58,213 nt of DNA, taken from assembly GCA_014859645.1 (NCBI GenBank), contig JACUTV010000006.1:1-58213 (forward strand), written 5' to 3'. The translations under genes were made by a program, and so were the position numbers. Source of the stretch: Campylobacterales bacterium. Lineage in GTDB: Bacteria; Campylobacterota; Campylobacteria; Campylobacterales; Campylobacteraceae. Position 1 is the first letter of the stretch; each line of letters begins with the position of its first letter. The notes beneath the pieces were generated by a model that saw only the letters and a list, made by a program, of their open reading frames with translations, was not told the DNA's origin and did no database searches. Below are positions 10,978-58,100 of this stretch, piece by piece.

Positions 10978-11343
10978 ATGAAAATCGCACTTTCTTGCCG
11001 TTCTATCTTGTTGGAGAAGGCATTATCTCTCTTTTTAAAGCCCCACATTGTGCCCCTAAAGCAGTGTGATTTTGTCGTATGTGACCACGAAGCAACACTT
11101 GGCACTCCTTTATTCCGCATCGGTATAAACACCCCCTTTCCTTTTAGCAAAAGCGCCCTAATGCTGGCGCTAGAGAATTTTTACACTTCCTTAAAAACCA
11201 CTGCACTGATAGAACAAGAGCCTCTTTGCAGTGTCGCGCCTGTGGCAAAAGACTTTTCCAAGCTCGAAGCAGTGTTGAGTGCCATCACGGCAAAGTACCA
11301 AGAGGATGTGCTCAAGGCAGTAAGGGAACATTATGAAGGATAA
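10978..11343 (+). CDS. Hypothetical protein upstream of rsmD
   Basis: A 121-residue protein, not recognised. The start MKIALSCRSILLEKALSLFL is chosen over an upstream frame extension to 10897 because conserved-looking sequence begins there. It contains FVVCDHEA and a mid-region IGINTPFPFSKSALMLALENFY, so it may be an alpha/beta fold, soluble in the cytoplasm. Its end overlaps rsmD by 11 bases. In C. jejuni a short uncharacterised gene occupies the same slot before the rsmD-flgI cluster (recalled as Cj1460). Confidence 0.7.
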   Translation: MKIALSCRSILLEKALSLFLKPHIVPLKQCDFVVCDHEATLGTPLFRIGINTPFPFSKSALMLALENFYTSLKTTALIEQEPLCSVAPVAKDFSKLEAVLSAITAKYQEDVLKAVREHYEG

Positions 11344-11908
11344 AGCGTTACATGTAAGCATTGGTGGTGGAAAATACCGTGGTAAAAAACTCAAACTCCC
11401 TTCTCTTTCTACAACGCGCAGTACAAAAAGTATTTTAAAAGAGTCCTTGTTCAATACTTTGCAGTTTGATTTGTGTGACGCTGTATTTGTGGAGGTGTTT
11501 GGGGGAAGCGGTTCTATTGGGATTGAGGCGGTGAGCCGTGGGGCAAAACACGCGTATTTTATTGAAAAGGACGCGCCAGCTTTTGGCGTGCTTGAAGAAA
11601 ATTGCGCCAGCGTCGACAAAACGTGCTTTACATGTAAAAGAGGAAACGCTTTTGAGATTTTGCCCAAACTTATCCCTTCTCTTATGGCTCCTGCGTACGT
11701 TTACTTTGACCCTCCTTTTGCCTTTCGCGAGGGAATGGACGATGTGTACCAAGCGTGTTTTGATTTGGCCCAAAGCCTCCCTGTTGCAAATATCAGAATG
11801 CTCATCTTTGAGCACATGCATTCTTTAGACATGCCCCAGTCACTTGGGAGTTTTGTTCTTCAAAAAACCAAAGCCTTTGGAAAGAGCGCCCTGAGTTATT
11901 ACATGTAA
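11333..11908 (+). CDS. rsmD: 16S rRNA (guanine966-N2)-methyltransferase RsmD
   Basis: A 191-residue methyltransferase that modifies G966 of 16S rRNA using SAM. It has the N-terminal GGKYRGKKL stretch, the SAM loop VFGGSGSIGIEA near residues 55-66, and catalytic DPPF at 126-129. Three TTACATGTAA copies fall in this one gene: near the 5' end (LHV frame), in the middle (FTCK frame) and across the stop codon (Tyr-Met-stop). The same methyltransferase precedes flgI in Campylobacter. Confidence 0.92.
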   Translation: MKDKALHVSIGGGKYRGKKLKLPSLSTTRSTKSILKESLFNTLQFDLCDAVFVEVFGGSGSIGIEAVSRGAKHAYFIEKDAPAFGVLEENCASVDKTCFTCKRGNAFEILPKLIPSLMAPAYVYFDPPFAFREGMDDVYQACFDLAQSLPVANIRMLIFEHMHSLDMPQSLGSFVLQKTKAFGKSALSYYM

Positions 11909-28774: not shown

Positions 28775-28851
28775 GGGAGCGTCCTTATTAAAAAATGGTA
28801 TTGTATCAAAAATAGGTGAGAAGCGGTTTAAGCGTTTGCCTCGCAATTTCC

Positions 28852-28861
28852 TTACATGTAA
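28852..28861. repeat. TTACATGTAA copy between glmU and motA
   Basis: Extended to a perfect 18-bp palindrome, TTCCTTACATGTAAGGAA (28848-28865), in the divergent glmU/motA intergenic region. It lies about 67 bases before the candidate motA -10 and about 75 bases before glmU. Confidence 0.75.
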
Positions 28862-28927
28862 GGAACCCCTTGTGCCTATTCGTAAAGGCTTAAAGGTTCT
28901 TTAACCAATCTTTAACCCAAAAGTAAC

Positions 28928-44920: not shown

Positions 44921-45000
44921 GCTAAAAATGATAACAAATGGGTTAACAGTTGCTTTATGCGACAGGGTAAAAAGAGTACTTTATCTCTCGTTGTTTTTCT

Positions 45001-45010
45001 TTACATGTAA
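45001..45010. repeat. TTACATGTAA copy in the doxX promoter
   Basis: CTTTACATGTAAAG lies just upstream of the doxX -10, overlapping the expected -35 position, so a protein bound here would affect initiation. One of the intergenic copies of the iterated palindrome. Confidence 0.75.
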
Positions 45011-45018
45011 AGAATTGG

Positions 45019-45575: not shown

Positions 45576-45662
45576 TGGTACCTGAGGGCGGACTCGAACC
45601 GCCACGACATCACTGCCACTGGATTTTGAATCCAGCGTGTCTACCAATTTCACCACTCAGGC
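45576..45662 (-). tRNA. tRNA-Leu (anticodon CAA)
   Basis: An 87-base class II tRNA with encoded CCA. The acceptor GCCTGAG pairs with CTCAGGT (one G:U); the anticodon stem CTGGA/TCCAG encloses the loop TTCAAAA, giving CAA; a long variable arm follows; the T-arm has GTTCGAGTC. Reads UUG leucine codons. Confidence 0.97.
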
Positions 45663-46144: not shown

Positions 46145-46161
46145 TGGAATCAAAATTGCTT
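46145..46161 (+). promoter_or_regulatory. Sigma-54 promoter for flgL
   Basis: TGGAATCAAAATTGCTT has GG at 46146-46147 and GC at 46158-46159, exactly 10 bases apart. It ends 31 bases before the flgL ATG, with a TTACATGTAA copy (46163-46172) covering the expected transcription start. Confidence 0.78.
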
Positions 46162-46162
46162 G

Positions 46163-46172
46163 TTACATGTAA
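46163..46172. repeat. TTACATGTAA copy at the flgL transcription start
   Basis: TTACATGTAAAG lies four bases past the GC of the sigma-54 -12 element, so it should span the +1 region of flgL and could act as an operator. It is followed by AGGAG, the flgL ribosome binding site. Confidence 0.7.
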
Positions 46173-46192
46173 AGAAAAACAGGAGACGTTTC

Positions 46193-48568
46193 ATGCGTAT
46201 TACAAATCAACTTTTTTTCAATAATACCCAGAGTAATTACCAAAGTAGCATGAAAGGGTTGCATAACACCAATCAACAACTTTCCAGTGGGTTAAAGATT
46301 CAATACAGCTTTGAAGATACAGGAATCTATGTAGATGCAATGCGTTTGGATTACGAGGCGAGTACGCTAGCACAGGTTAAGCAAACGAGCGCTAAAGCGC
46401 AATCTTTTGCCAACAATACGGACAAGGCATTCAACCAATTTTCCAGCTCCCTTGACCAGTTTAAAATCAAACTAACACAAGCGGCTAATGACGGAGCAAT
46501 GTCAGATACAAGCCGTGAGGCCATTGCCAATGAATTAGAAGCAATCAGAACGCACCTCGCAAGCGTTGCTAATACCTCCATTAATGGTACATTTCTATTT
46601 TCGGGAAGCGCAACAGATGTTAAGCCTATTGGTGCAAATGGCTCCTATAAGGGTAATGGAGAATCTTTGAATGCTCTCGTGGGTTCACAAGTGCAGCTTG
46701 CCTATAATATTGACGGGCAATCGCTTTTTTTAGGCTCTAGCGGAGATTACAATAAAAAAGTATCTGCCAATATGCCCATGTTTAACCTGACAAAGCTTCA
46801 TCCAGGTGTCATGCAGGGTAACGAGGGCGAGATTTCAGTCCCAACGTATCTTAAAACCACGGATACGATTCGCGATATGGTAGGCGACACAGACGCCGAT
46901 ACTGCCAATGATCCAAATGCGGTCTTTTATGTCTCAGGCGTTAACAGCCATGGTACATCTTTTAATACAAAAATAGAAATGACAAGCAATGCATCGGTGG
47001 AGGATTTTCTAGAGCGTATCGGTCACGCCTATGGCAACACTTCTACTAGTAAAGTCGTTGATGTTTCATTGAATGACCATGGTCAAGTGGAAGTGACAGA
47101 TTTGCGCAAAGGGAGCAACCAATTAGAATTTCATATTTTTGGAGCAGTTGATCGTAGCGCAGCTGCTGGTACGGCTGGTAATGCAGACGCAACAGATTTG
47201 GATGCCTTATTTGCCAATCAGAATGTGGATATAGTGGAGTTTATGCGCAGTGATTTTAGTGCTAACGCCACCCTTCCAACGGTTGCTTCGAGAGAAGATT
47301 TTACGCGACCTGGAACTTTTAAAATGGGCGTACCGCTTACCTTAGGGGATGGTAGCCATGCAAATGCTGCTACAAATCTTGATGCACTTTTCCCCGCCAA
47401 CGTCGACCATGTTTTGGTGGGAGCAACCCCATTGTCTGTAGCGGGAAATACCGTGCAAGACCTGCTTAGTGCTATTGAGACAGAAGCTGCACTTCCTGCA
47501 GGAAGTGCACGCATTGAAAATGGGCAAATTCTTGTGGAAGATACCACGAGTGCCTTTTCACTTACTCTAACCACACGAGATGTTGCTAATGTGAATGTGG
47601 CGGGATTTAAAACCTTTGATGCGGCGAATTTTGAACGCCGTGGTTTTGAGCTTGACGGCAACCAACTCTCTGGCAATATTTCCCAGATTGTGAATGAAAC
47701 GGGAAATTATGCCGTTTCAAACACCAAACTTTCCGAAGCCTCCAATACGGGAACTGTTGATGGGACGACGTTCGCATTAGAATTTGTAGACATCCAAGGG
47801 AATGTGCGCAAAGCAGAAATTAACCTTGCAAGCCCTCAAAGTACCTTTAGTGTTGACATGGATAATGATGGGGTGATGGATGACACCTATGTCATTTTTA
47901 ATGGAAAGGGCGAGGATACGGCAGCCGATGATGTGACATACCGACAACTTATGGATATAGTAGGGATGGTAACGTCCAATGTGTTTCCTATGACACCTGA
48001 TGATGCGGGCTACAATACGGCTATTACTAATTCGCGCAACCGTGTCGATGTGAATCTAGACCACCAAGGACACATTCAGATTGTAGATAAAACTAGCTCT
48101 GTGTCGCAAATGCGATTAACCATGCATGATGCAAATGCCAATGATTTTAGCACACCAAGCACACTAAACTTCATGTCCAATAATGCCATTGTGGTCGATG
48201 AACCTTCTTTGGATATTTTTAAAGATTTGGATGCCATGATTGAAGCCGTGCGTAATGGAACTTACCGCGCTGATGGAACAAACGGTGACCGAAATCCTGG
48301 GATTCAAAACTCCCTTGAGCGCCTTGATCATATTATGGACCATTTCACAAGACAACACACCAAAATCGGGGCCTTATCTAATGCCTTGCGAGATTCAAAA
48401 GACCGTGCCACACTCCTTGAGGTGAATGTCAAATCTGTCAAATCTGAAATTATTGACGCGGATTACGGCGAGACGATGATGAAGTTTCAACAATACGTGC
48501 TTTCTTACCAGGCGATGCTTTCGTCGATTTCAAAAATCAATCAGCTCTCTTTGGTGAATTACATGTAA
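46193..48568 (+). CDS. flgL: Flagellar hook-associated protein FlgL
   Basis: A 791-residue junction protein. The N-terminus MRITNQLFFNNTQSNYQSSM, with LNTNQQLSSG-like LHNTNQQLSSGLKI, and the C-terminus YGETMMKFQQYVLSYQAML with INQLSLVNYM are flagellin-type D0 helices. It is far longer than enteric FlgL (about 317) owing to a large exposed central insert, as in Campylobacter. ATG at 46193 follows AGGAG. The last codons Tyr-Met-stop are formed by a TTACATGTAA copy. Confidence 0.93.
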   Translation: MRITNQLFFNNTQSNYQSSMKGLHNTNQQLSSGLKIQYSFEDTGIYVDAMRLDYEASTLAQVKQTSAKAQSFANNTDKAFNQFSSSLDQFKIKLTQAANDGAMSDTSREAIANELEAIRTHLASVANTSINGTFLFSGSATDVKPIGANGSYKGNGESLNALVGSQVQLAYNIDGQSLFLGSSGDYNKKVSANMPMFNLTKLHPGVMQGNEGEISVPTYLKTTDTIRDMVGDTDADTANDPNAVFYVSGVNSHGTSFNTKIEMTSNASVEDFLERIGHAYGNTSTSKVVDVSLNDHGQVEVTDLRKGSNQLEFHIFGAVDRSAAAGTAGNADATDLDALFANQNVDIVEFMRSDFSANATLPTVASREDFTRPGTFKMGVPLTLGDGSHANAATNLDALFPANVDHVLVGATPLSVAGNTVQDLLSAIETEAALPAGSARIENGQILVEDTTSAFSLTLTTRDVANVNVAGFKTFDAANFERRGFELDGNQLSGNISQIVNETGNYAVSNTKLSEASNTGTVDGTTFALEFVDIQGNVRKAEINLASPQSTFSVDMDNDGVMDDTYVIFNGKGEDTAADDVTYRQLMDIVGMVTSNVFPMTPDDAGYNTAITNSRNRVDVNLDHQGHIQIVDKTSSVSQMRLTMHDANANDFSTPSTLNFMSNNAIVVDEPSLDIFKDLDAMIEAVRNGTYRADGTNGDRNPGIQNSLERLDHIMDHFTRQHTKIGALSNALRDSKDRATLLEVNVKSVKSEIIDADYGETMMKFQQYVLSYQAMLSSISKINQLSLVNYM

Positions 48569-50811: not shown

Positions 50812-53800
50812 ATGCGCGTGAATCTTATTATTGAATTCTTTATTGGCCGCCCTAGGCTAAATTACCTCCTTTTTTTCTTTTTAATTTTAGCGGGCGTCGT
50901 GTCCTATGTGACCATGCCCAAAGAAATCTTTCCCCCTTTAGCTCTTGATAAAATCTCTATCACGGGGTTTTATTCGGGTGCTAGTCCAAACGCCCTTGAT
51001 AAAATGGCAGTCTCTCGGATTGAAGATGAAATTAGCAATGTGTCTGGGATTCGCTCAGTAGAATCCACTATCGCTTCTGGGCGTTTTTCGATGGTGGTTG
51101 AGCTTGAAAAGAGTGCAGATAAAAACGACGTGCTTCAAAAAATCAAAGACGGTATCGCGCGGGTGCGTCCTGATTTACCCGCTGATATGGATGAGCCTAA
51201 TGCGACCTTGTTTGCCTTTTCAATTCCGCTCATTCTTGTCAATATCAGCTCTGATACACTTAGTATTGATGCGCTAGTAGAGATTGCAAAGGCGTTTAAA
51301 TCAGACCTTTCTCAGATTGAAAACCTCACTAATTTGCAAATCTACGGCGAAGGTGAGCGGGTAATCGAGATAGTCCTTGATACACGCAAACTCGAAGCTT
51401 ACGGCCTTTCTTCGGCATCGATGGCGACAGCTATTGGGCGGATTTCTTCTATTTTTCCCATTGGAAAACTGGAAGAAACGGGAGGAAAACATGCATTTAT
51501 TTCGACCTATAACGGCAAAGAACCCCATGAGCTTCTTAATGCATTACTTCGGATTGATGGAAAATCACTGCGCCTTGGAGACGTAGCGACCATTGAAAAG
51601 CACTACACGCAAACAGACACGCTTTCTTCTTTTGAAGGCAGACGTTCCCTAAGCGTCAACGTGGCAAAAACCGAAGAGGGCAATGCCATGGCGCTAGCGA
51701 GCAAGGTCAAAGAGCGCGTTAACGAACTGGCTATGCGTTACCCTGGGGTAACTGTAGGGACGTTTTCTGATACTTCCGTGTACATTGAAAACCGTCTAAA
51801 TACGGTGGTTTCCAACATCCTATTTGGGCTTATCTTGGTTGGTTTAGTGATGCATTTGCTTGTGAATCACCGCATTTCGCTAGTAGTGATTATCGGGGTG
51901 CCCACCTCGTTTATCATCGCGCTTTTGTTCATGGACTTGGGCGGTTATAGCATCAATATGATGACTCTTTTAGGTGCGCTCATCGCCATTGGGGTGATTG
52001 TGGATGATGCGATTATCGTAGCGGAAAACATCCAGCGCCACATTGAAGAGGGGATGGCGCCCAAAGAAGCGGCGATTGTGGGCACCAAAGAAGTGGTGAC
52101 TCCCGTGCTTGCCGCGTCCTTTACGACGATTTTTGCGTTTTTGCCCATGCTGATTATGAGTGGTGAGATGGGGCAGTTTATCAAGCTCATTCCCATTGCT
52201 ATTAGCGTGCTTATTTTAGCTTCATTGATTGAATCGTTCATTTTTTTACCTATCCATGCGTCTCATTTGTTGCGCCCAAAGGACAAACAGGTGGATTGGT
52301 CGCGGGCGATGGACGTCTACATCAATTTTGTGCGCAAGCTCATCAAATACCGCAAAACCACCTTGTTTACCTTTTGGATTTTGGTTCCTGCGTTGATTGT
52401 TGGGGGATTTGCGCTGAGTAAGTTTAAAATCTTTCCAGAATTTGACGGCGATCAGATGAATATCAGTTGCAAACTTCCCGTGGAGACAACTTTGGAAGAA
52501 ACCCATGGGATTGCTAGGGCGCTTGAAGCGGAAGTACTGCGCCTAAAAGAGAAGTATTTTATTGAAAATGTGACGGTGATTTCGGGCTTTCGCATGAACG
52601 CCAAAGGAGAAGGAGAGGAGGGGACTAACCTGTTTCACCTTTTTGTGGATTTGAAGCGGGCTAAGCCTGACAACCTTGTTTCCAAGTACATCACGCCCAT
52701 TCTTTCCTTTGACCTCAAAAGCATGGACTATGAACGCACGTTCAAATCGTATGACATTGAAGCACAGCTGCGAGACGAACTTGTGGCTTTCATGGCGCAG
52801 TATGAAACGGTAAATTTTGAAGTGCAAGGGCCAAATGCTGGGGTTGTAAGCATGCCCATTGAGCTTTTTGTGTATGCGGCGCAAGATGAGGATGCCAAGG
52901 TGGCTATTGCGCGTATTAAGCGCGCGCTAGGGGGCATTAAAGGGACGAATACCATCGGAGATGACGCCACACTTGGTGTACCAGAAATCAAGTTAAAAGT
53001 CACGCCCTACGGGGAGATATTGGGTATAGACGAAGGAACGCTCGCGCGGGTTTTGGGTGAATATTTTTTAGAATCTTCTCAGGCCAAAGGATTTGATGAT
53101 GAGGGATTCTTTGACGTAATTTTAAAGGAAAAAAACCACAACTCTTTGGAACGATTGCGCAGTTTCATGTTGACCTTGGATTCGGGAAAACAAGTAGCAC
53201 TGCGGGATGTGGTAGAGTTTGTAGAAGTGGAAAATTACGAAAAAATATTTAAAAAAGACGGTAAAAAACGGTGGATGGTCTTTAGTAATGTTGCCAGTGA
53301 CATCACGCCTAGCGAAGTGCTAAAAGAGCTTAAGCCCACGTTGGATGCTATTGCTAGCGAGGGTGTTGTGAATGTGGGGTTTGGGGGAGAGAAAGAACAA
53401 AACGACCAGCTTGTCCGCGAAATGAGCATGGCCAGTGCTATTGCATTGTTTTTGATTTTTGTGACGCTTTTGGTAATGTTTGATTCGTACCGTTTGGCGT
53501 TTATCATCCTTTCTGTCGTGCCTTTTTCCCTTCTTGGGGTGGTGGCAGGTCATAGTATCATGGGGATGGATTTGTCCATGCCTTCGATGATTGGCGCCCT
53601 TGGATTGGCGGGCGTGGTGATTAATGATGGGATTATCATGCTTGATTTTATCCGTAAAACCACGACGATGGAAGCGCTTTTGGGGCGGGCAAAACTGCGC
53701 CTTCGCCCCATTGTCTTGACATCCATTACCACCCTTGCAGGACTTTCTACGCTCATCTTTTTCCCTTCAGGCCAAGCGGTCATCTTGCAGCCTTTGGCAG

Positions 53801-53889
53801 TTTCGCTAGGCTTTGGGTTGTTGTGGGGAACGTTTTTAAATCTTGTGTATTTGCCCACACTCTATGCTTTCGTTTCAAAAGTTAAGTAA
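50812..53889 (+). CDS. RND-family efflux transporter permease
   Basis: A 1025-residue inner-membrane pump of the AcrB/MMPL-like superfamily: an N-terminal helix, two large periplasmic loops and two sets of helices. The proton-relay aspartates are in GALIAIGVIVDDAIIVAENI. No membrane-fusion protein or outer-membrane channel is encoded beside it. This, and sequence such as YVTMPKEIFPPLALDKI, suggests the AcrB-like, possibly stand-alone, Campylobacterota type. Substrate unknown. It lies 16 bases after ftsK. Confidence 0.88.
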   Translation: MRVNLIIEFFIGRPRLNYLLFFFLILAGVVSYVTMPKEIFPPLALDKISITGFYSGASPNALDKMAVSRIEDEISNVSGIRSVESTIASGRFSMVVELEKSADKNDVLQKIKDGIARVRPDLPADMDEPNATLFAFSIPLILVNISSDTLSIDALVEIAKAFKSDLSQIENLTNLQIYGEGERVIEIVLDTRKLEAYGLSSASMATAIGRISSIFPIGKLEETGGKHAFISTYNGKEPHELLNALLRIDGKSLRLGDVATIEKHYTQTDTLSSFEGRRSLSVNVAKTEEGNAMALASKVKERVNELAMRYPGVTVGTFSDTSVYIENRLNTVVSNILFGLILVGLVMHLLVNHRISLVVIIGVPTSFIIALLFMDLGGYSINMMTLLGALIAIGVIVDDAIIVAENIQRHIEEGMAPKEAAIVGTKEVVTPVLAASFTTIFAFLPMLIMSGEMGQFIKLIPIAISVLILASLIESFIFLPIHASHLLRPKDKQVDWSRAMDVYINFVRKLIKYRKTTLFTFWILVPALIVGGFALSKFKIFPEFDGDQMNISCKLPVETTLEETHGIARALEAEVLRLKEKYFIENVTVISGFRMNAKGEGEEGTNLFHLFVDLKRAKPDNLVSKYITPILSFDLKSMDYERTFKSYDIEAQLRDELVAFMAQYETVNFEVQGPNAGVVSMPIELFVYAAQDEDAKVAIARIKRALGGIKGTNTIGDDATLGVPEIKLKVTPYGEILGIDEGTLARVLGEYFLESSQAKGFDDEGFFDVILKEKNHNSLERLRSFMLTLDSGKQVALRDVVEFVEVENYEKIFKKDGKKRWMVFSNVASDITPSEVLKELKPTLDAIASEGVVNVGFGGEKEQNDQLVREMSMASAIALFLIFVTLLVMFDSYRLAFIILSVVPFSLLGVVAGHSIMGMDLSMPSMIGALGLAGVVINDGIIMLDFIRKTTTMEALLGRAKLRLRPIVLTSITTLAGLSTLIFFPSGQAVILQPLAVSLGFGLLWGTFLNLVYLPTLYAFVSKVK

Positions 53890-53911
53890 CCTTTACATGT
53901 AAAGGTTACTT
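53884..53911. terminator. 28-bp perfect palindrome at the end of the RND gene
   Basis: The palindrome is centred on TTACATGTAA (53893-53902) and extended outward by CC/GG, A/T and more to 14 bases per arm: AAGTAACCTTTACA and its complement. It spans the RND stop codon. As an RNA it could form a long hairpin; there is no U-run, so termination is plausible but unproven. Confidence 0.55.
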
Positions 53912-53998
53912 CGTCTAAAAATACCTATTTTATGTACTGCAACGACACCTACTGACCCTATCAAACCTCTTTTTGTTGGCATTTTCTTCCATTATTTT

Positions 53999-57318: not shown

Positions 57319-57351
57319 TTCCTTACATGTAAGCGCGTTACATGTAAGGAA
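57319..57351. terminator. Inverted pair of TTACATGTAA palindromes between convergent genes
   Basis: Two copies (57323-57332 and 57338-57347), each extended with TTCC or GGAA outside, flank GCGCG. The 14-base arms TTCCTTACATGTAA and TTACATGTAAGGAA form a perfect inverted repeat. It lies 5 bases before the slipin stop on the minus strand and could end transcription from both sides. Confidence 0.6.
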
Positions 57352-57356
57352 AAGTA

Positions 57357-58100
57357 TTAGGATTTTGGAGGCACAAGCAACTTGCCAAGGTCGCTTGAAA
57401 AAGGAAAGACGATGGTGTTGGTCTTGTCACCAGAAATGTCGTTGAGGGTTTGCAAGTAGCGCAATTGCAAAGCTTGGGGGTTTTGCGCCAAAATATTGGC
57501 GGCTTCGAGGAGGTTTTGACTCGCTTCAAGTTCGCCTTTGGAGTTGATGACTTTAGCGCGGCGTTGACGTTCGGCTTCAGCTTGCTTGGCGATAGCGCGA
57601 ATCATGCTCTCATCAAGGTCGATGTGTTTAATCTCCACATTAGAAATCTTAATCCCCCACGTGTCGGTTTGTTTGTCTAAAATCTGCTGAATGTCGTGGT
57701 TGAGCTTTTCTCGCTCGGCTAACATTTCATCTAGCTCATGACCACCTAGCACGGAACGCAGGGTTGTTTGGGCTAACTGCGATGTGGCGGTACTAAAATC
57801 TTCCACTTGAATGACTGCTTTTTCGGGGTCAATAACACGGTAATACACCACTGCATTAACCCGCACAGAAACGTTGTCATGAGAGATGACATCTTGGGAA
57901 GGAACATCTAATACTACGGTGCGCAAGTCCATTTTTTGGATTTTTTGAATAAAAGGAACGACCAAGATAAGCCCTGGGCCTTTAACCCCTGTAAAACGTC
58001 CAAGGGTGAACATCACCCCTCGTTCGTATTCTTGTAAGACGCGAATGGAAGCGGCAATGATGAGAAGGATAATCATTGCAATATAGAGAGCGGTAATCAT
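57357..58100 (-). CDS. Slipin (stomatin-like SPFH-domain protein)
   Basis: A 247-residue protein with an N-terminal membrane anchor ([20 protein letters not shown]) and an SPFH/band-7 domain: [38 protein letters not shown]-like ([20 protein letters not shown]), then an Ala/Glu helical oligomerisation region. These proteins form membrane rings or scaffolds and often act with a NfeD-family protein, encoded just upstream. The exact process is not known. Confidence 0.9.

Follow-up and report, generated by a model that had tools for sequence, protein, structure and literature searches.

Why does a transporter gene of a Campylobacterales bacterium end inside a long perfect palindrome, and does this symmetry belong to the one site or to a larger family of sequences? 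In the stretch of DNA that was analysed (58,213 nucleotides, hereafter the window), the stop codon TAA of an RND gene (53887-53889) lies within the left arm of AAGTAACCTTTACATGTAAAGGTTACTT, a perfect palindrome of 28 bp (53884-53911) with 14 bases per arm and no mismatches. This agrees with an earlier note on the same DNA, which had claimed a perfect palindrome of this length, formed by the symmetric extension of a 10-mer, TTACATGTAA, across the stop codon of the gene (Table 1). It is the longest perfect palindrome of the window. The runner-up is a 22-bp perfect palindrome, TGCACTTCCTGCAGGAAGTGCA, located at 47488-47509 within a flagellin-domain gene (46160-48568), and is not based on the 10-mer.

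As RNA, the region 53870-53930 folded into a stem of 12 bp topped by a CAUG loop, with an energy of -12.6 kcal/mol (z -3.64). In the RND transcript the arms would pair in this form at the stop codon, and the resulting hairpin would probably end or protect the mRNA. An RNA hairpin directly at the stop codon is shared with intrinsic (rho-independent) terminators; the RND hairpin differs from these in having no U-tract from 53912 onward, and a terminator scan found none at the hairpin starting at 53884. The sole Rfam match in the window was a tRNA gene on the minus strand (45579-45662). In the sister species (genome G001), 28/28 bases of the palindrome are identical; this conservation is not specific to the arms, because the surrounding bases are nearly unchanged too. 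In another genome of the family (G012), a copy of the 10-mer is found approximately 37 nt past the RND stop codon, and the palindrome there measures only 14 bp.

Table 1. Palindromes, copies of the 10-mer and the RND gene in the window.
Feature	Position	Strand	Basis or remark
28-bp perfect palindrome; as RNA, 12-bp stem and CAUG loop	53884..53911	.	RNA fold; kept in G001
Core copy TTACATGTAA of the 28-bp palindrome	53893..53902	.	motif count
RND (AcrB/AcrD/AcrF family) transporter gene	50812..53889	+	ORF; Pfam ACR_tran E 4e-147
Copy of TTACATGTAA	1765..1774	.	
Copy of TTACATGTAA	3878..3887	.	14-bp palindrome
Copy of TTACATGTAA	6507..6516	.	
Copy of TTACATGTAA	9561..9570	.	
Copy of TTACATGTAA	11348..11357	.	
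Copy of TTACATGTAA	11628..11637	.	
Copy of TTACATGTAA	11899..11908	.	ends ORF 11333-11908 with its own TAA
Copy of TTACATGTAA	16871..16880	.	
Copy of TTACATGTAA	17124..17133	.	
Copy of TTACATGTAA	21349..21358	.	
Copy of TTACATGTAA	24762..24771	.	
Copy of TTACATGTAA	24946..24955	.	14-bp palindrome
Copy of TTACATGTAA	27696..27705	.	
18-bp exact palindrome around the copy at 28852	28848..28865	.	divergent gap
Copy of TTACATGTAA	34451..34460	.	
Copy of TTACATGTAA	40066..40075	.	14-bp palindrome
18-bp palindrome around the copy at 45001	44997..45014	.	divergent gap; absent from the earlier note
Copy of TTACATGTAA	46163..46172	.	
Copy of TTACATGTAA	48559..48568	.	ends ORF 46160-48568 with its own TAA
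Copy of TTACATGTAA	48604..48613	.	
Copy of TTACATGTAA	50799..50808	.	right past the FtsK-family stop codon; 14-bp palindrome
Pair of copies (57323, 57338), 5 nt apart, 14-nt complementary arms	57319..57351	.	second gene-end hairpin

The core of the palindrome is a member of a large family. TTACATGTAA is its own reverse complement and is present in 24 copies in the window, compared with 0.02 expected. The 2.78-Mb genome G000 contains 1,084 copies, while the reversed control sequence was found once. In samples of G000 and of genome G138, it was the most over-represented 10-mer of all. Among 122 sampled G000 copies, the positions flanking the core prefer A or G (R) and then G, reading outward. 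In three samples, one-base variants were in excess solely at the first or last base (46, 113 and 18 versus 1.3, 4.2 and 1.9 expected), while internal one-base variants did not exceed chance (6, 25 and 9 versus 8.2, 26.5 and 13.9 expected). The copies are also spaced more evenly than random in 5-kb windows of G000 (variance/mean 0.62, p 0.013) and G001 (0.73, p 0.003); in G138, the evenness was not significant (0.82, p 0.17).

Exact conservation of the element was evaluated by aligning G000 with G001. The sampled part of G001 offered an alignable counterpart for 26 of the 122 sampled G000 copies, the other 96 having no orthologous stretch there, and 24 of the 26 copies were identical. In the same alignment, with an overall identity of 82.6%, only 25% (coding) and 31% (intergenic) of control 10-mers were identical. 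The flanks of the aligned copies diverged at the general rate.

Such properties could be those of a binding site for an abundant dimeric protein that organises the chromosome or regulates genes, the long arms of the RND copy being incidental. The perfect dyad symmetry of the core and of its two outward positions, strict conservation, even spacing and the existence of variant sites that share the CATG centre are in line with it. However, a thousand sites, mostly inside genes, would be unusual for such a protein, the hairpins formed at gene ends and by pairs of copies would be left unexplained, and no candidate protein was found. We regard this explanation as rather unlikely.

The position of the copies relative to genes was determined using our own simple gene caller rather than a standard one, and the same caller served for the G235, hairpin-energy, pair and arm analyses below. 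Intergenic copies accounted for 56/122 in G000, 111/346 in G001 and 42/122 in G138, an enrichment of 4.8 to 5.2 fold over the intergenic share of bases. In all three samples, the position of copies peaked 0-20 nt past stop codons, and several genes take their stop codon from the TAA of the element itself. Convergent gaps held more copies per kb than gaps of other orientations. This peak and this density are what could be expected if the whole family consisted of transcription terminators. Yet 54 to 68% of the copies in the three samples were coding, the arms of most copies have too few bases to make a strong hairpin, and U-tracts are not generally present. In two of the three samples, moreover, convergent gaps (of which 18 to 29% carried a copy) contained the element no more often than tandem gaps did. 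A further genome, G235 of family f16, is more extreme: 20/20 sampled copies were coding, some of them in genes that read as housekeeping genes when their first residues were inspected by eye. Because every sampled copy is coding in G235 and close pairs number just 3 there, hairpins and gene-end use are not the general role of the element. That the family as a whole serves as terminators is highly improbable.

We next consider the length of the symmetric extension, which the earlier note had proposed to compare between intergenic and coding copies. Across three genome samples, an extension of at least 6 was found in 11/147 copies at gene 3' ends, where 0.67 were expected when flanks were swapped within each class. 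The corresponding values were 1/77 for other intergenic copies (0.28 expected) and 2/365 for coding copies (0.42 expected). Gene ends thus differed from all other positions (11/147 versus 3/442, Fisher p 3e-5), and 0/2,000 flank swaps reached 11; in this count, the RND site was entered twice, once per sister species. The excess was therefore confined to gene 3' ends and did not extend to intergenic copies in general. The arm and energy tests left out copies that lay within 40-50 bases of the end of a stretch (589/590 kept). For gene-end copies, hairpins were on average lower in energy than their flank-swapped control in G001 and in G138, and equal to it in G000.

The extension of the RND copy itself was compared with the 122 sampled G000 copies after shuffling flanks among copies, those within 25 bases of a stretch end being dropped. 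An extension of exactly 9 was expected 0.02 times. An extension of exactly 4, which forms an 18-mer, was observed in 4 copies and expected in 1.6. The palindrome at 28848-28865, which the earlier note presented as a shorter case of the same phenomenon, is indeed exact over 18 bp, but palindromes of this length are weaker cases and near chance.

Close pairs of copies, 3 to 25 nt apart, gave a similar picture. Genome-wide, 62 were counted in G000, 45 in G001 and 42 in G138, while about 10, 10 and 12 were expected under uniform placement, an expectation that ignores the clustering of copies in intergenic DNA. Complementarity between the outer flanks of the pairs exceeded every shuffle in G001, ranked near the top of the shuffles in G138 and did not stand out clearly in G000. 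Among the listed pairs with spacers of at least 7, the inner flanks were complementary above shuffles as well (8 and 5 of 2,000 reached the observed mean). The pair at 57319-57351 is an example from the window: it sits 14-29 nt past the stop codon of the minus-strand gene 57357-58100, and G001 retains the pair with another loop. Close pairs thus look like hairpins too, and other gene ends may obtain the same role as the RND gene end either from one long-armed copy or from two copies a few bases apart.

Long arms could also arise by mutation. Template switching at an existing palindrome would perfect a quasi-palindrome, and the products may be tolerated only in noncoding DNA. Consistent with this, few coding copies have long arms (the 2/365 given above) and the arms show no enrichment of wobble pairs; no preference for G-U over A-C was found, and this comparison could not separate symmetry at the RNA level from symmetry at the DNA level. 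However, since only one of the 77 other intergenic copies is long-armed, tolerance alone does not explain the bias towards gene ends. The close pairs with their complementary outer and inner flanks also point to a gene-end bias, although the numbers that speak against template switching are small. We consider this origin of the arms improbable. As for the selection that the earlier note had invoked, for either a hairpin or a large dimeric site, the extension is non-random, and because the excess of long arms is seen at gene ends only, to which a larger dimeric site would be indifferent, a hairpin at the 3' end is favoured over such a site. In conclusion, the arms exceed chance and fit a 3'-end hairpin, albeit one without a U-tract.

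The distribution of the element among relatives is patchy. Within the window's family, for which 120 genomes were counted, TTACATGTAA exceeded 800 copies in three (G000, with the number given above, G001 with 1,059 and G012 with 804); one genome (G007) had 54 copies, genomes of genus g10 had 1 to 287, and the rest had 0 to 8. A 14-mer form, CTTTACATGTAAAG, was present in 32/298 genomes of the order, chiefly in family f20. A scan of viral contigs with this 14-mer returned at least 120 stretches that looked like chance, and was set aside. Over the 3,000 bases that were compared, one contig of G138 (C2) was 100% identical to a plasmid of Sulfurospirillum diekertiae, and we therefore read family f20, genus g31, as Sulfurospirillum. 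Ten Sulfurospirillum genomes were counted: seven had 1,099 to 1,496 copies of TTACATGTAA, and the others had 411 (G257), 238 (G227) and 49 (G192). In G192, internal one-base variants were slightly above chance (14 versus 9.4 in 160 kb), as if the element were decaying. In family f16, G235 had 340 copies and G214 had 367, while three other genomes of the same two genera had 1, 10 and 48; the two high counts suggest separate or recent gains.

Samples of two relatives suggest that they carry variant forms in which the CATG centre is kept. In G154, which belongs to a sister genus and is nearly devoid of TTACATGTAA, TATCATGATA occurred 10 times in 100 kb versus 0.8 expected; this variant is only suggestive, because it is weaker and mostly coding. 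In the sample of G257, 17 copies of the standard form were accompanied by 12 occurrences of TTACATGTCA and TGACATGTAA.

A palindrome in hundreds of copies per Mb that is replaced by other palindromes in relatives resembles the highly iterated palindromes (HIPs) of cyanobacteria and their alternate HIPs. For HIP1, it has been proposed that the sequence is made or kept by a DNA methyltransferase together with repair, and its description (PMC4390886) lists perfect palindromy, very high copy number, replacement in relatives and one-base variants limited to the two end positions, all of which are shared by the element studied here. The model expects a methyltransferase wherever the motif occurs (PMC4390886). 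In contrast, among three Pfam families (N6_N4_Mtase, MethyltransfD12 and DNA_methylase), no methyltransferase tracked the element and no member was common to the high-copy genomes; G235, with its 340 copies, was without all three families at the cut-offs used. In addition, the element is an AT-rich 10-mer while HIP1 is GC-rich, and the strong gene-end bias and the pairs found here do not figure in the HIP description consulted (PMC4390886). A HIP-like origin is, in our view, an unlikely explanation.

A closer likeness is found in the sequences by which some bacteria recognise their own DNA during natural transformation. We know of no uptake sequence that is palindromic, and in this respect the element differs: any two of its copies are inverted relative to each other. 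The DNA uptake sequence (DUS) of Neisseria and the USS of Pasteurellaceae, as they have been described, share several features with the element: a copy number in the hundreds to thousands, equal to roughly one copy every 1-3 kb, strict conservation, enrichment between genes, inverted pairs close together at gene ends, and dialects in related genera. For the neisserial DUS, two accounts report strict conservation, a bias towards the core genome, dialects and inverted-pair terminators (PMC2397512, PMC3630211), and DUS and USS are described there as fewer in acquired DNA. In the first 100 kb of the 200.7-kb plasmid pSulSP, the only plasmid counted, 2 copies were found in the first 50 kb and 10 in the next, which holds cobalamin and dehalogenase genes; the chromosomal density of G138 is about 22 copies per 50 kb. 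The element, a candidate uptake signal, differs further from DUS and USS in that it occurs in Campylobacterota and has internal near-misses only at chance level.

The element would most likely be a self-recognition tag of the DNA-uptake-sequence kind. A dedicated DNA-binding receptor would read it during natural transformation, and such use would keep the element intact. For a DUS or USS, a cognate pilin receptor such as ComP would be expected in genomes that carry the motif. The competence genes that were searched support neither side, since ComEC was present in 26/26 and a secretin in 24/25 genomes searched, with or without the element, so that neither family separates these genomes and no receptor or competence gene in them is tied to the element. 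A literature search on the 10-mer, on Sulfurospirillum and on uptake signals of Epsilonproteobacteria found no description of the element. The uptake reading is the most likely one but unproven.

At the RND gene, a copy of this genome-wide, self-complementary element (core TTACATGTAA, R and then G outward) may have been recruited as a 3'-end hairpin. Because the element is palindromic, a single copy can double as the core of a hairpin at an mRNA 3' end, as at the RND stop codon. We assign a probability of roughly 0.45 to the reading of the 28-bp palindrome as a copy of a genome-wide DUS-type tag recruited in this way. A broader proposal is put forward more tentatively: TTACATGTAA would serve Campylobacterota as a DNA uptake sequence, the first palindromic one, sister genera would use dialects of it, and a single copy could double as a hairpin core.

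Few bacterial groups are known in which short sequences are kept letter-exact in about a thousand copies. If the element is an uptake signal, it would offer a route to the genetic manipulation of Sulfurospirillum and its relatives. It would also allow a test of the coevolution of uptake signals and their receptors, for which the low-copy genome G192 and genus g39 would be natural comparisons. If it is not an uptake signal, then some other chromosome-wide recognition system would exist in these bacteria. The 28-bp hairpin at the RND stop codon would stand as an example of how a genome-wide signal may become part of mRNA ends.
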